A DNA stretch of 64,000 nucleotides from Alloacidobacterium dinghuense (lineage in GTDB: Bacteria; Acidobacteriota; Terriglobia; Terriglobales; Acidobacteriaceae), in contig NZ_CP060394.1 of NCBI RefSeq assembly GCF_014274465.1, forward strand, positions 4,402,001 through 4,466,000, given 5' to 3'. Under the pieces are notes generated by a model. The model worked only from the letters and a program-made list of their open reading frames with translations, was not told where the DNA came from and did not search any database. Positions 38,457 to 43,133 of the stretch are shown piece after piece; position 1 is the first letter of the stretch, and the number at the start of each line of letters is the position of its first letter. Made by a program: the position numbers and the translations under genes.

Positions 38457-39089
38457 CTACAGCGTATCCGATACCATCTGCCGCATCATCATGCTGTTGG
38501 TCGTGTCAAGCTCCTCGAGCCCGGCAATCACGCCCCGCCGGTCAGCCTCCGAGCGATTCTGGCTGACCTTCCACTTACCCTCCAGCCGCTCAATCGGAAG
38601 CTCCAGCCCGACAATGCCTTTCACCAGCGACGCCACATAGCCTGCCGGCGCGTCCGTCACCTTCCACGGCTCGGGCGAAGTCGCTTCGTGAATATTCGTC
38701 AGCCGCTCCACGTGCGCTCGCAGCCAGGCGGCGTCTTCAATCACCTTCAGATAGCCATAGGCATGCACCACCGCATAGTTCCACGTCGGAACCACCTTGC
38801 CCGTCTCCTGCTTCTCCGCATACCACGAAGGAGAGATGTAATGATGCGGCCCGGAGAAGATGGCCAGCGACTCCACATCCGGCGAGTATTCCCGCCACTG
38901 TATGTTGGCCCGCGAGATGTGCCCGCGCAGCACGCCCAGCGATCCTTCCTGCTCATCCAGGACCATGGGAAGATGCGTTGCATAAAGACCGGAGATACCG
39001 AATGTAATCAGAGAAGCGAACGGCTGCCGCTGCATCAGCTGATGCAGCACGGGAACACGTGTCTCTTCATGATGCCGGGGAATATACAT
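38457..39089 (-). CDS. PaiB-like FMN-binding protein
   Basis: 210 residues of the PaiB / FMN-binding negative transcriptional regulator family, a split-barrel flavin-binding fold. The start MYIPRHHEETR is the family N-terminus, and AAAGGAAAA lies upstream; a longer open frame adds 50 unrelated residues. FASLITFGISGLYATHLPMVL (about 24-44), HISRANIQWRE, YISPSWYAEK and VPTWNYAVVHAYG are family blocks. A regulator of sporulation and protease genes in Bacillus gave the name; in an acidobacterium the role is open and could be a flavin-dependent enzyme. Confidence 0.85.
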   Translation of the reverse strand: MYIPRHHEETRVPVLHQLMQRQPFASLITFGISGLYATHLPMVLDEQEGSLGVLRGHISRANIQWREYSPDVESLAIFSGPHHYISPSWYAEKQETGKVVPTWNYAVVHAYGYLKVIEDAAWLRAHVERLTNIHEATSPEPWKVTDAPAGYVASLVKGIVGLELPIERLEGKWKVSQNRSEADRRGVIAGLEELDTTNSMMMRQMVSDTL

Positions 39090-39352
39090 AGTGTAAGTTT
39101 TCCTTTTATAGCTTCTCTTCGCACTGAGAAGCGGCGTTTGCAAGACAGAAAATGACACACCAAGAGCACTGAAGGAATCCACCGCGTCGCTCCCGCATAC
39201 GATCGCAACTGTTTTGGGGGCTTTCTTAAATAGACGCAAAAATCCACCCGAGTGTTTTACGGATTCGCAGAAAAGGGTGCCTCATTTCGGGCAACTCAAT
39301 GGAGAATAAAAGATTTTTTCGATCGCCTCAAACCATCTTTCTCGCCCCCTGC

Positions 39353-39381
39353 CCGTCATTCTGAGCGCAGCGAAGAATCTC
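39353..39381. repeat. Dispersed repeat of the GTCATTCTGAGCG type
   Basis: The block begins GTCATTCTGAGCGCAGCG and ends AAGAATCT. It recurs, diverged, at 39642-39700 and 43589-43622. Such blocks are scattered in acidobacterial and other genomes and generate spurious short ORFs. Confidence 0.6.
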
Positions 39382-39566
39382 AACGATCCCTCTCGCTCAC
39401 CACCTCGAAGCAAAAACGTACGACATGAACCCAAACCACCAACAGAACACGGTTGCCTCATCCTGTCTCCTCGCGCAGTTCGAGGAGATAGAGCCTTCCC
39501 TGAGCCTGCCGAAGGGGTGGGGTCGAACAAGACCGCGCAAAGCGCGCACTGATTCAACGGTAGAAG

Positions 39567-39586
39567 CACCGGCCTTCAGGCCGGTG
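39567..39586. repeat. REP-like palindrome
   Basis: CACCGGCC (39567-39574), loop TTCA, GGCCGGTG (39579-39586): a perfect 8-bp stem with a TTCA/TGAA tetraloop, the same design as the element at 39836-39855. Confidence 0.65.
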
Positions 39587-39641
39587 AAAACGCGCAAGAC
39601 AACGAGGGGCTTCTTATCCCAGCAACAAGCCTTATTAAGCC

Positions 39642-39700
39642 GTCATTCTGACGACCAGCGGGAGAGCCTGTCCTGAGCCCAATCGAAGGAAAGAATCTGA
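39642..39700. repeat. Diverged copy of the GTCATTCTGA repeat
   Basis: GTCATTCTGACGACC opens the block, and GAAAGAATCTGAAC closes it with extra sequence between. It is longer than the copy at 39353-39381. Confidence 0.5.
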
Positions 39701-39835
39701 ACGATGACAGCTGCGCCAGCGGGCGCTCACGAATCAACTAGCAGAGAACAAGAGCGGGCGACTTTTCATTCAATTTGGGAATGTACATGATTCCACCATG
39801 GCGAACGAGGGTGAAATTTCTTAATGGTTCGTAAG

Positions 39836-39855
39836 GGCACGGCTGAAGCCGTGCC
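39836..39855. repeat. REP-like palindrome upstream of RAYT remnant
   Basis: GGCACGGC (39836-39843), loop TGAA, GCCGTGCC (39848-39855). CTAAAG-AGG-CTTTAG (39872-39886) and CGCGAT-AAA-ATCGCG (39897-39911) follow in series, so three palindromes lead to the start of the truncated RAYT-like ORF. Confidence 0.7.
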
Positions 39856-39915
39856 ATCGAAGCCCCGTCTAAAGAGGCTTTAGCCCCTGAGGTAAACGCG
39901 ATAAAATCGCGTCCA

Positions 39916-40107
39916 ATGTCTGCTCCACCGCGACCTGTGCATTCTGGAACATTCCTCGTCACAACCGTTACAAATAAGAAAGACGCGTTGAGATCGAGCC
40001 CGAGTGGATCGCGAGCGGGCGAGCGGTGGGAAAGCTTTGCACCGCAGTCGAACTATCCCACTCAGACCAAAAGATGGCTTGAATGGCCACCGTCCACTAA
40101 GAATTAA
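39916..40107 (+). pseudogene. Remnant of a REP-associated tyrosine transposase (RAYT)
   Basis: The 63-codon ORF starts MSAPPRPVHSGTFLVTTVTN, which matches the N-terminus of IS200-like RAYT proteins (G-T-F/Y-V-T-x-V-T strand), and then departs from the family within about ten codons. The catalytic HUH and Tyr regions are absent. Three REP-like palindromes lie directly upstream, as in intact RAYT loci. I infer a truncated, decayed transposase; the match rests on about 20 residues. Confidence 0.45.
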
Positions 40108-40236
40108 ATATCCTCTTACTTACTTGTTATTGACGTTTTTGATTCCCACCATATTTGCGCCCTAGTTTTCCGCGTTTTGCGCAGGAAAGGACCTCGTATC
40201 CCTCATGCAGATAGAGATATCATTATTCATTGGTGC

Positions 40237-40381
40237 CCACCGCTCCGTTGGCTGGCAACCTAGCAATTAGGTTTGCGATTCGATGGAGTCTTGGTGGAGG
40301 CGTCGCGTCGACACGAAGCGAAGGCGACTGCGAAAAGCGTACGGATCTTTGTCGTACTGCTCAAGCAAAGCCGTTAGTGAA
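40237..40381. repeat. 145-bp direct repeat, copy 1 (candidate structured RNA module)
   Basis: Identical over 145 bp to 40629-40773. It can fold: CCACC with GGTGG and CTCC with GGAG close a domain holding the hairpin AACCTA-GCAAT-TAGGTT. GTCGC with GCGAC and GTACG with CGTAC make further stems. The arms predict an RNA of several hairpins rather than a protein. The repeat starts after TGGTGC and is followed by GTTCGGACGAC. Confidence 0.85.
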
Positions 40382-40478
40382 GTTCGGACGACATCCACAG
40401 CGTGCAGGCCGGGCCGGTCTTAAGAGACAGTCCACACCTGCAGCGCCTAAAGGTGCTGTCGAGGATAAAAGGAGAACG

Positions 40479-40571
40479 ATGGCAAGTAGCAAGAACCTGG
40501 AGGCGAGAGGCGGGCGGAGCTCGAAAGGGCTTGACAAAAAACCAATCTGGTTAGAATTGATAATGGGGTGA
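40479..40571 (+). CDS. 30-codon ORF with strong ribosome binding site between the repeats
   Basis: ATG 40479 lies four bases after AAAGGAGA. The 30-residue peptide begins MASSKNLEARGGRSSKG, is Gly/Ser/Arg-rich, then Lys-rich, and ends hydrophobic. Its TGA is followed within 2 nt by a 9-bp hairpin (40573-40593). The position between the two copies of the 145-bp repeat suggests it is part of the reverse-transcriptase locus. I do not recognise it. The ribosome binding site is the main evidence that it is translated. Confidence 0.45.
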   Translation: MASSKNLEARGGRSSKGLDKKPIWLELIMG

Positions 40572-40572
40572 T

Positions 40573-40593
40573 CCGGTCGCTGAAAGCGGCCGG
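40573..40593. repeat. 9-bp hairpin after the 30-codon ORF
   Basis: CCGGTCGCT (40573-40581), loop GAA, AGCGGCCGG (40585-40593), with one T-G wobble. The T-rich run after it is weak (GGTTTGTT), so termination is possible but uncertain. Confidence 0.55.
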
Positions 40594-40628
40594 GGTTTGT
40601 TGCATCTATCTGGCCTGTATAAACTGCA

Positions 40629-40773
40629 CCACCGCTCCGTTGGCTGGCAACCTAGCAATTAGGTTTGCGATTCGATGGAGTCTTGGTGGAGGCGTCGCGT
40701 CGACACGAAGCGAAGGCGACTGCGAAAAGCGTACGGATCTTTGTCGTACTGCTCAAGCAAAGCCGTTAGTGAA
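40629..40773. repeat. 145-bp direct repeat, copy 2, next to the reverse transcriptase
   Basis: The second, identical copy, 392 bp downstream of copy 1 and 45 bp before the RT start codon. The lack of any substitution points to recent duplication or gene conversion. Unlike a diversity-generating template and target pair, no adenine differs between copies. Confidence 0.85.
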
Positions 40774-40774
40774 C

Positions 40775-40806
40775 GCCGCCTGCATCCGTAATTCTCCGCA
40801 GGCGGC
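40775..40806 (+). promoter_or_regulatory. 9-bp hairpin directly before the RT start codon
   Basis: GCCGCCTGC (40775-40783), a 14-nt loop, GCAGGCGGC (40798-40806), perfectly paired. It begins one base after repeat copy 2 and ends 12 nt before the RT ATG, where a ribosome binding site would be expected; none is visible. It could control RT translation or be an end structure of an RNA. Confidence 0.6.
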
Positions 40807-40818
40807 ATAACTTCAACC

Positions 40819-42021
40819 ATGAACGCACAATCAGCCCTCTTTAGAGTCTCTGACAAGGAATTTCTTCGCAAAGCTTGGAGAGAAATCTCCAAACGCAACA
40901 TGCAGTCCAGAGGGCTAGACAATGTAACCATAAGAGCGTTCAAAAGCCGGCTCGACGAGAATCTGTCTGACATTAGCAATGAATTGCGCACAGGCAAGTA
41001 TGAGTTCAAGAAGCTGAGAGCTCATGCCATTAAAAAGTCCGGATCTAACAAACCACGTCCACTTCAGATCGCCAGCGTGAGGGATCGCGTTGTGATGAAG
41101 GCGATCGCCTTATTCTTAGAACCAAGGTTCAATCAATTTAATCTGGACTGCAGTTTCGCCTTTATCAAAGGACGGGGCGTTACCCCGGCGATTAATCGAA
41201 TACATCAACTTATCGATCAAGGTAATAAGTATTACTTCGAGGCTGACATAATCAATTTCTTTGGCTCGGTTGACCGCGAAGTATTGTGGCAAATGTTTTC
41301 TAAAGAAGTCCGCCAAAAAAGTCTCCTGAGCCTTCTTCGTAAATGTTTCGATTTGGAATTGGAAGATCTTCAAAGCCATCACACCGAATTCCAAGAACTG
41401 TTTTTTGGCGCCAATACGGGCATTCCTCAAGGTGGAGTGTTATCTCCAATGCTTGCTAATTTCTATTTGTATGAATTCGACCGAAGAATGGTTCAGCACA
41501 GCTTCAATCTAGTGAGGTATGCTGACGATTTCGTAGTAATGTGTAAGAGCCTAGAGGATGCTCATAGAGCACATGGGCTTTGCAGAGACACATTAACGAC
41601 CCTTAACCTGAAAATTCATACTCTCGACGAACAGGGCTCTAAAAGCAAGATCGGAAGTTTTTCAAAAGACGGGCTGCTCTTTCTCGGTATTCGCTTCGAA
41701 GGTCAAGAAATCTACCCAGCAAGCAAAGCGGTGACGAGATTTAAGGGAAAAGTTAAGGAAATTCTAAAACCTGACAGCGGAAACAGTCTCTTCAAGACCT
41801 TACAGCAATTAACCAACTTAATTAATGGCTGGGGAAAGTGGTACAAACACATGCGCGTCGCGAATATATATCTAGACGCCGATAAGTTTATAAAAGAGCA
41901 GGTCGAAGCCTATTTGAAGGCTTCTGGCATCTTGCTAATTGGTAAGCATAAACGAAGGCAATTAAAGTTGCTCGGTATTCCCTCGCTCTACAACATGATC
42001 GAACACTCGAAAAAGCCCTGA
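40819..42021 (+). CDS. Reverse transcriptase, group II-like, without endonuclease domain
   Basis: 400 residues. The N-terminal RT-0/1 region has SGSNKPRPLQIASVRDRVVMKAI (split here: SGSNKPRPLQIA, then SVRDRVVMKAI, about 74-95). Motif A is EADIINFFGSVDRE with D143, motif B is IPQGGVLSP (202-210), motif C is YADD (234-237), and motif D/E includes FLGIRF (288-293). Residues 305-365 (LTNLINGWGKWYKHMRV) resemble a short thumb or maturase-like region; no HNH domain follows. QGG..SP rules out the DGR type, and retron VTG and NAxxH motifs are absent. The coding sequence is visibly A/T-richer than its neighbours, which suggests transfer. It has no evident Shine-Dalgarno site. Confidence 0.88.
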   Translation: MNAQSALFRVSDKEFLRKAWREISKRNMQSRGLDNVTIRAFKSRLDENLSDISNELRTGKYEFKKLRAHAIKKSGSNKPRPLQIASVRDRVVMKAIALFLEPRFNQFNLDCSFAFIKGRGVTPAINRIHQLIDQGNKYYFEADIINFFGSVDREVLWQMFSKEVRQKSLLSLLRKCFDLELEDLQSHHTEFQELFFGANTGIPQGGVLSPMLANFYLYEFDRRMVQHSFNLVRYADDFVVMCKSLEDAHRAHGLCRDTLTTLNLKIHTLDEQGSKSKIGSFSKDGLLFLGIRFEGQEIYPASKAVTRFKGKVKEILKPDSGNSLFKTLQQLTNLINGWGKWYKHMRVANIYLDADKFIKEQVEAYLKASGILLIGKHKRRQLKLLGIPSLYNMIEHSKKP

Positions 42022-42052
42022 ATCGGGGGCCGCGACATCAAGATCCGATTAA

Positions 42053-42913
42053 CTAAGCCACATACCCCATCTCCCCCAAAACCCCACGCATGTATCCAAT
42101 ACTCTTCGTCGCCCCAGGCATGGGATCATCCCCATGAATCTCGTACTCTAAATCCACATACCCCGGATACTTCATCGCAATCAACGTCTCAAAGATCTGC
42201 CGCACCGGCATCTTGCCCTCGCCCACAGGCACCTGGCTCTCTTTTACTTTCATGTCGGCAAGATCTTTCATGTGCACATCAAAGAGGCGCGGCCCAACGG
42301 CCTTGATCGCTTCTACCGGGTCAACGCCTGCGCGCGCCGTATGTCCCACGTCGATGCAGCAGCCCATGCGCGGGTCCATGTTCTGCACGGCCTTCAGCAC
42401 ATCGAGCGGCGAGTGCCAGATCTTGTCCTCCGGCCCGTGGTTGTGGAGGGCGAAGCGAATGTCATACTCCTTCACAAATTTCTCAATCCGCGGCAGCGTC
42501 TCCGGCGTCGGATCGCCCGCCACGATCACCTTCACTCCGGCGCGCTTCGCATACTCGAAGCGCGAGCGCACGTCATCGTCCTCATCCTTGGGAAAGTAAA
42601 CCGTGCCCACCGCCCGCGGCGTGATGCCCGCCGCCTTGTAGTCGGCCACCGCTGCCAGCGTCGCCTCCGGCGGAGTCATCGGCAGATGGTCCCTCACATC
42701 CTTCGCGTTCAGATCGGTAAGTTTCAGCTCCTTCATGAACTGGATCACATGCGCCCGGTCGAACTCGCGAAACGTATAGCTGCACATCCCCAGCCGGATC
42801 GGTGAGGGTTTTCCAGCTTTGGCAAGAAGCGAATGGGTGGCAACAGTGGAGGCGGCAGCAACAATGGCACTCGAACGAAGAAATTCACGGCGGCTCAGCG
42901 ACATGACTGCCAT
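42053..42913 (-). CDS. Tat-exported sugar phosphate isomerase/epimerase-like protein
   Basis: About 286 residues of the xylose-isomerase-like TIM-barrel family (AP endonuclease 2 fold). The N-terminus carries a twin-arginine signal, SRREFLRSSAIVAAAS, so the protein is exported folded. Metal-site residues are seen in ALHNHGPED, CIDVGHTARAG, FDVHMKDL and YVDLEYEIHGDD. Such proteins act on sugars, inosose or hydroxypyruvate; the substrate here is not known. The ATG at 42913 or 42904 is the start; a GTG at 42925 lacks support. The gene is convergent with the reverse transcriptase gene. Confidence 0.8.
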   Translation of the reverse strand: MAVMSLSRREFLRSSAIVAAASTVATHSLLAKAGKPSPIRLGMCSYTFREFDRAHVIQFMKELKLTDLNAKDVRDHLPMTPPEATLAAVADYKAAGITPRAVGTVYFPKDEDDDVRSRFEYAKRAGVKVIVAGDPTPETLPRIEKFVKEYDIRFALHNHGPEDKIWHSPLDVLKAVQNMDPRMGCCIDVGHTARAGVDPVEAIKAVGPRLFDVHMKDLADMKVKESQVPVGEGKMPVRQIFETLIAMKYPGYVDLEYEIHGDDPMPGATKSIGYMRGVLGEMGYVA

Positions 42914-43133
42914 GATAATTTTCACGGGACCCGTATGTCTAAGGAACAGGGAAAGATGAACCGCGCAGCGGTACGATATTCCGCCTGAGTCTCGCCTTGA
43001 TCCGGCGCAGCGTGAAGAACGTCTAGCCCTACTTATGGGGATTCAAGATTACCCCTTTGTGGGATTGTGGGGTCCGGATCGCCTCGATAGGCTTGAGTAT
43101 GCAGATGCAATATTCTGCCTATGAAGAGGTTGC

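Follow-up and report, generated by a model that had tools for sequence, protein, structure and literature searches.

Paired identical repeats upstream of a clade of group II-like reverse transcriptases may belong to a terminally redundant RNA template

A reverse transcriptase (RT) gene of Alloacidobacterium dinghuense is preceded by two identical repeats, R1 and R2, and this arrangement recurs specifically in one clade of group II-like RTs. The locus (GCF_014274465.1, NZ_CP060394.1) was analyzed within a 64,000-nt stretch, here called the window, which starts at contig position 4,402,001; all coordinates are those of the forward strand of the window. At each locus, the two repeats are 98-100% identical, though the repeat sequence (R) differs between distant lineages, and repeat and spacer show the structure and conservation of an RNA. 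Sequence comparison makes it well supported that the repeat is a structured RNA partner of this RT clade. A terminally redundant RNA would be the simplest mechanism that accounts for all of these features. We propose, at slightly less than even confidence, that a domesticated group II-like RT uses such an RNA as its template and that end-to-end jumps of the cDNA yield concatemers, perhaps in phage defense.

R1 and R2 were identical across 145 nt in a self-comparison, with their starts 392 bp apart, and a gap of 45 bp separates the end of R2 from the RT start codon (40819). No other matches to the repeat were found in the 6.27-Mb single-contig host genome at E ≤ 0.001. The RT open reading frame (ORF) is intact and encodes 400 aa, with PQGG..SP and YADD visible by eye in the translation. 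The G+C content was 0.42-0.45 over the body of the RT gene (three 600-bp segments) versus 0.50-0.61 in the segments on either side. The original prediction for this DNA had described two perfect 145-bp repeats that can fold, upstream of an intact YADD/QGG RT gene richer in A/T than its surroundings, and each of these points was borne out. The annotated parts, all on the plus strand, are as follows:

40237..40381, repeat R1, the 5' copy, a structured RNA domain (100% identity to R2, compensatory changes)
40382..40628, spacer between R1 and R2, 247 nt (83% identity over 211 nt with related genome G187; only part of it, 98 bp at 68%, aligns with locus L014)
40470..40487, spacer motif AGGAGAACGAyGGCAAGT, possibly ribosome-site-like or an RNA motif (alignment of the window, G187 and L014; last bases variable)
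40531..40557, weak promoter-like TTGACA..TAGAAT with a short, 15-nt spacing (by sequence reading)
40572..40594, hairpin upstream of R2 (the homology of a solo copy in genome G244 starts here)
40629..40773, repeat R2, the 3' copy, a structured RNA domain (identity, fold, compensatory changes)
40775..40806, hairpin of 9 bp in the gap between R2 and the RT gene, arms GCCGCCTGC/GCAGGCGGC (equal arms in G187 by eye)
40819..42021, group II-like RT, 400 aa, with YADD and the GIIM domain (ORF, domain, fold, tree)
40230..40571, ORF1, the frame of R1 extending into the spacer, C-side of a hypothetical split gene (codon test gives coding no support)
40568..40810, ORF2, which runs from the end of the spacer into R2 in the frame of R that ORF1 uses and would be the N-side of that split gene (codon test gives coding no support)

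Relatives of the RT were sought in overlapping sets of 298 genomes of the order, 398 of the family and 396 of the phylum, as well as in genome contigs, plasmids and viral contigs. The layout was scored as present when a direct pair of at least 75 nt and at least 95% identity had its second copy ending no more than 100 nt from the RT match. The order R1, spacer (220-316 nt), R2, RT was found for 8/11 RTs in a single clade, which ranges over Acidobacteriota, a Pseudomonas plasmid and contigs of viral collections. The eight loci, with repeat length, identity of the two copies and period, are these:

Window: 145 nt, 100%, period 392
G187: 79 nt visible at the contig edge, 100%, period 386
L014/L031 of G151: 133 nt, 98.5%, period 449
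L041 of G261: 117 nt, 100%, period 352
L114, Pseudomonas aeruginosa plasmid: 132 nt, 100%, period 376
L119, viral collection (IMG/VR 2926726868_000002): 138 nt, 99.3%, period 376
L120, viral collection: 133 nt, 100%, period 353
L155, viral collection: 150 nt, 98.0%, period 381

Across these loci, 45-68 nt lay between the end of the second copy and the start codon or the first position of the RT match. For L014 and L041, the open frame of the RT, and perhaps the start codon too, begins nearer the second copy. Another member of the clade, L101 (G241), has incomplete sequence at the repeat site. In a tree, the 11 RTs were split from 25 other RTs, many of them intron-encoded, at a 100/99 branch; L155 sat on a long branch, which makes its exact position uncertain, and earlier trees had flagged the branches of L032, L041 and L114 as long. 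Single-sequence queries found no RT relatives in the viral contigs. An alignment query found 40, three of them with the layout. NZ_CP131792 was the sole close match among the plasmid matches listed, and the best 15 of 1286 records in another plasmid search were all at about 32% or less. A search of E. coli with the Pseudomonas locus gave no match.

Two surveys of other RT loci found no comparable pairs (0/34 and 0/37), with little upstream sequence at some loci (178 nt for L016) and with some viral contigs that were near-copies of each other. Repeats upstream of four RTs outside the clade (L015, L018, L092 and L093) were rejected, as their second copies end at least 217 nt from the RT match. 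L018 (3186-3784), a group II intron RT locus from Elusimicrobia, does contain intron RNA; its 195-nt direct repeat of 96% identity lies upstream, at a distance of 217 nt from the RT match. L036 and L091, also outside the clade, carry tandem arrays with a period of about 74 nt and exact units of 29-32 nt, which are not pairs of at least 75 nt. The array of L036 ends 49 nt upstream of its RT. Both arrays adjoin long RT frames (702-779 aa) and look by eye like CRISPR arrays beside RT-Cas1-type genes.

The window repeat folds better than most of its shuffles. Fold z-scores for single repeats were -2.67 in the window (2/200 shuffles as good), -4.00 in G187, -2.76 in L014, -2.04 in G261 and -3.00 in G107. 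The repeats of G261 and G107 share a three-way junction in which six pairs carry compensatory changes on both sides and 98.9% of cells are paired; every slid control had 0 double-sided pairs, and 8/500 shuffles scored as high. For the window, G187 and the solo copy of G244, there were five double-sided pairs with 94.0% paired, against 0-2 in slid controls and 7/500 shuffles as high. The original prediction had named covarying stems in several genomes, always beside this RT, as support for an RNA partner; compensatory changes were found in two sequence sets, one of which includes a solo copy.

Conservation also extended beyond the repeats. Between the window and G187, the spacer, R2 and leader were 79.5% identical, versus 67.2% nucleotide identity for the RT gene. 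Between L119 and the Pseudomonas plasmid, the R1-spacer-R2 stretch was 98.2% identical (9 mismatches in 510 nt, none in the repeats), versus 78.4% for the RT gene. The spacer is kept by motif across the lineages of the window, G187 and L014, the last with an R that does not align to that of the window, and also between G261 and Pseudomonas. A covariance model named R1, made from eight sequences of the 3' half of R, matched 30 of the 298 order genomes at E ≤ 0.01 and eight at E < 1e-15. All eight strong matches were inputs of the model, and the other 22 (E 1.7e-4 to 0.008) were taken as noise. The earlier idea of a noncoding RNA (ncRNA) unit present in two copies for the RT therefore stands in one part, since a clade-linked, structured RNA pair was found in 8/11 loci, and changes in another, since the conserved stretch is the whole of R1-spacer-R2. 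The conserved 247-nt spacer and the recurrence of the paired layout are new relative to that prediction.

The RT itself has the features of a group II-like enzyme. Profile searches gave the domains RVT_1 and GIIM (GIIM 27.6 bits, cut-off 23) and a score of 241 bits with TIGR04416 (group II RT/maturase), which is below the equivalog cut-off of 300. The predicted structure had a mean predicted local distance difference test (pLDDT) value of 85. Its nearest solved folds were the G2L4 RT (9d4s, template modeling score (TM) 0.83), followed by group II intron RTs, and the template-switching complex of GsI-IIC was among the matches. Template switching is a known ability of group II RTs. The active site reads YADD in the window RT and YIDD in the RTs of G261, G107, G241 and Pseudomonas.

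These features suggest the following mechanism, the steps of which differ in probability. R1, spacer and R2, about 0.5 kb, would very likely be carried on a single, terminally redundant transcript to which the RT binds. The RT would then probably copy R2, the spacer and R1 of that RNA. It is a tentative further step, with somewhat less than an even chance, that the cDNA end, on which R has been copied, anneals to R2, whether on its own template or on a second RNA, and that copying goes on, as modeled on the strand transfer between R regions of retroviral RNA. The resulting concatemers would repeat every R plus spacer, which is 392 nt in the window. A role of the product in phage defense is marginally favored; the DNA could be toxic or a decoy, could trigger a partner or could be an assembled gene. 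That the members of a pair are nearly identical while R diverges calls for conversion of one copy by the other or for selection that keeps them matched; under the proposed mechanism, the repeats would be kept identical because the end jump needs matching ends.

Another possible explanation is that the repeats are binding sites for the RT or scaffold domains, for example one per subunit, in an RNA that is not copied through them, with the RT making another product or acting in repair like G2L4. The folding of R into a defined domain, the oligomeric RT-ncRNA complexes known for DRT9 (from PDB titles) and the closeness of the G2L4 fold all agree with this. It leaves unexplained why R1 and R2 are 98-100% identical amid the divergence of lineages, as drift that preserves base pairs should be tolerated. 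We consider a scaffold unlikely, though a serious contender.

The 145-bp unit was also found outside the paired layout. It occurred in 9/298 order genomes, namely the window's own, G187 and seven with solo copies, and none of these seven had an RT relative at E ≤ 1e-30. The original prediction had named the presence of the unit in genomes without the RT as a result that would refute it, and this was seen in part, as single and mostly partial copies in 7/298 genomes. Six solo copies were compared with their flanks. Their 3' ends lay within 4 nt, at the 3' end of R (40764-40767 in the window), and their 5' ends corresponded to 40572, about 40630, 40665, 40702, 40703 and 40704. The seventh copy, L011 (G136), matches positions 44-85 only and does not have the common 3' end. 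A common 3' end with varied 5' ends is the pattern expected of cDNA whose synthesis started from the 3' end of R2, and it is at most a hint of such cDNA.

The same pattern would also be left by a selfish retroelement, in which the RT copies an RNA ending at R2 and inserts the copies, with R1 and the solo copies being such insertions. The sites of two solo copies, one at RHS-like coding sequence and one inside an SRPBCC-like gene (both by eye), suit this explanation as well. It fits poorly with the similar distance of R1 in distant lineages and the conserved sequence after R1, with a host genome that holds only two copies and with solo hosts that have no RT relative at the threshold above; we regard it as improbable. 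In the SRPBCC-like case (L008 1354-1743, minus strand, G086), the solo copy consists of the spacer end plus R and lies by eye in frame within the gene, which is AHSA1-like, apparently replacing part of it. A search for the empty site gave no useful ortholog in six genomes (G086 and five of its genus). The solo copies of L007 and L012 have stops in the frame of R (by eye). Palindromic elements of the GGCACGGCTGAAGCCGTGCC type were seen at about 39840-39870 in the window and around 1501-1640 in L009, where the solo copy abuts one.

Several observations weigh against a terminally redundant template. Two members of the clade do not have the pair: L100 (G107) has one repeat only, directly upstream of the RT, and L032 (G074) has no repeats, so either these two loci are inactive or the system can do without the pair. 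The Pseudomonas repeat barely folds better than its shuffles (z -1.53, 12/200 as good). The covariation tests used two or three sequences and structures derived from them, in the case of G261 and G107 from one. A recent exchange of modules between loci could also account for the contrast between L119 and Pseudomonas (98.2% versus 78.4%), and gene conversion by itself could be enough to maintain identical pairs. The 5' ends of three solo copies (L009, L010 and L012) nearly coincide, at positions 73-75 of R; truncated cDNA could give this, and a separate short element would do so equally well. A consensus scan of 40000-40860 with 16-18 nt spacing found no standard promoter, and a Pfam scan of seven neighbors of the RT in the window found no defense genes.

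The single repeat of L100 is also what a deletion between R1 and R2 would leave. Recombination at the DNA level could excise and re-insert a circle of R plus spacer, with gene conversion homogenizing the copies and the RT being a mere neighbor. The homogenized repeats agree with this; the compensatory changes point to selection at the RNA level, and the clade-specific tie to the RT also speaks against it. We therefore consider recombination of this kind very unlikely.

If concatemers or circles of R plus spacer are formed, they could carry one complete small gene, its parts (hydrophobic start, R, C-part) in permuted order, that would be assembled solely by reverse transcription through the repeats, as a counterpart of the neo gene of DRT2. 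The evidence for such a split gene is mixed, with the codon tests against it, and we think it quite unlikely. In all five loci examined, R has a frame that continues without a stop both where the spacer passes into R2 and where R1 passes into the spacer; in this frame, a stop directly followed R2 in 4/5 loci and came later in L120 and L155. Sense runs of at least one period were found in 7/7 loci, compared to 1.57 expected from shuffles (product of chances 3.8e-5 over six), and antisense runs of that length in 3/7, compared to 1.71 expected. The p values of the coding shuffle were 0.02-0.24 per locus and 0.003 when combined over five loci, and the result was stronger with seven.

The remaining observations argue against a split gene. 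Substitutions between the window and G187 were distributed over the three codon positions as 26/29/22 in the split-gene stretches, compared to 100/68/236 in the RT gene, and the same picture was obtained with the RT genes of L119 and Pseudomonas (47/35/195) and the repeats of G261 and G107 (8/9/6). In G187, no ATG, GTG or TTG was seen by eye before R in that frame, and the period was divisible by three in only one of seven loci (L155). Constraint on the RNA explains most of the conservation.

Some members of the clade have restriction-, TIR- or mobile-element-type genes close by, which tends to favor a defense role, as judged from sequence matches. The corresponding slot in G073, a genome of the window's genus, lies between counterparts of the two genes that flank the window locus and carries DndB-like, TIR-like and GIY-YIG genes in place of the RT locus; the DndB-like gene scored 50.8 bits (cut-off 29.1) and the TIR-like gene 21.4 bits with the CAP12 model, below the cut-off of 24.7. 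In G151, a DpnII-MboI endonuclease adjoins the RT. The Pseudomonas stretch has a TIR match below the cut-off plus a resolvase, and Fic and ArdC genes are near the G261 locus. Four proteins scanned around L119 gave only HAD, DprA-like and HTH matches. Our estimate for the defense step was lowered slightly, from probable to just above even, because two of the TIR matches were below the cut-off and few loci were scanned.

Other features of these neighborhoods were also recorded. The DndB/TIR/GIY-YIG set of G073 (L117 9792-12621) suggests a variable, defense-type slot in this genus. At 4455-7230 of L119, the close relative of the Pseudomonas locus, nearby genes include one that by eye resembles a resolvase, a HAD/phosphoribosyltransferase gene and one that is DprA-like. 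The RT of the repeat-less clade member in G074 (L086 7844-10229, minus strand) overlaps a gene that resembles a PLD-type nuclease by eye, perhaps a different partner.

Among known systems, mobile group II introns encode kin of this RT, as seen from the TIGR04416 match and the GIIM domain. They differ in that the TIGR04416 score is below 300 and intron RNA was not found: no Rfam family matched at E ≤ 1 in 39000-43000, and no intron RNA reached the gathering score in L014, L030, L032, L041, L085 and L086, while many outgroup loci were positive. Domain V and D1-D4 were likewise not found, and an intact group II intron was rejected, in line with the original prediction. The RT, which is group II-like and retains a maturase domain, would fit a chance tandem duplication or an intron relic. 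The same layout at eight loci and the lack of intron RNA at these thresholds make that extremely unlikely.

The original prediction had also found no fit to a diversity-generating retroelement or a retron. The two copies are identical and so have no adenine differences, which agrees with the first. A retron is unlikely, as there was no VTG by eye and no inverted repeat of at least 20 nt (shorter arms are possible); NAxxH was also not seen by eye in the RT protein. VTG is described as a retron motif in the available part of PMC4244168. G2L4 is similar in having the closest solved fold, a maturase domain and no intron RNA. It has YIDD (PMC12337344, available sections) rather than the YADD of the window RT, and those sections do not mention a repeated RNA.

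The closest parallels are found among RTs that work with ncRNAs. According to the accessible portions of PMC11100668 and PMC12039810, DRT2 (UG2) consists of an RT with an upstream ncRNA, from which rolling-circle cDNA and the neo gene are made; the template is about 120 nt, the jump uses a 3-nt match, and the unit length is divisible by three (PMC12039810). The RT with an upstream ncRNA is shared with the window, and concatemers formed by template jumping would be a common principle. The window clade differs in its repeats of 117-150 nt and periods of 352-449 nt, and its window RT scored 73.8 with the Drt2 RT model, far from the cut-off of 390. DRT10 (UG17) also pairs an RT with an ncRNA, and its model, which has no cut-off, was the best UG match after the general RT model (167.6 bits); the trees had no UG17 sequences. 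The excerpts at hand of PMC12632851 report that DRT10 requires a SLATT protein and that the tested system makes 9-nt repeats. No SLATT match was found in the Pfam scan of the seven window neighbor proteins.

RT-ncRNA systems are already known, but a partner RNA that carries a long repeat at either end, the two being identical, seems undescribed. No description of paired long repeats before a bacterial RT was found in the accessible text of the open-licence PMC literature, including the RT classifications PMC8934634 and PMC4244168; subscription papers and most preprints were outside this search. If the repeats mediate strand transfer, a domesticated group II-like RT in bacteria would be making end jumps of a retrovirus-like kind. 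With one RT gene and an RNA of about 0.5 kb, this would be a compact and testable system and, if the proposal is true, would add to DRT2, DRT9 and DRT10 one more way of making repetitive or assembled cDNA.
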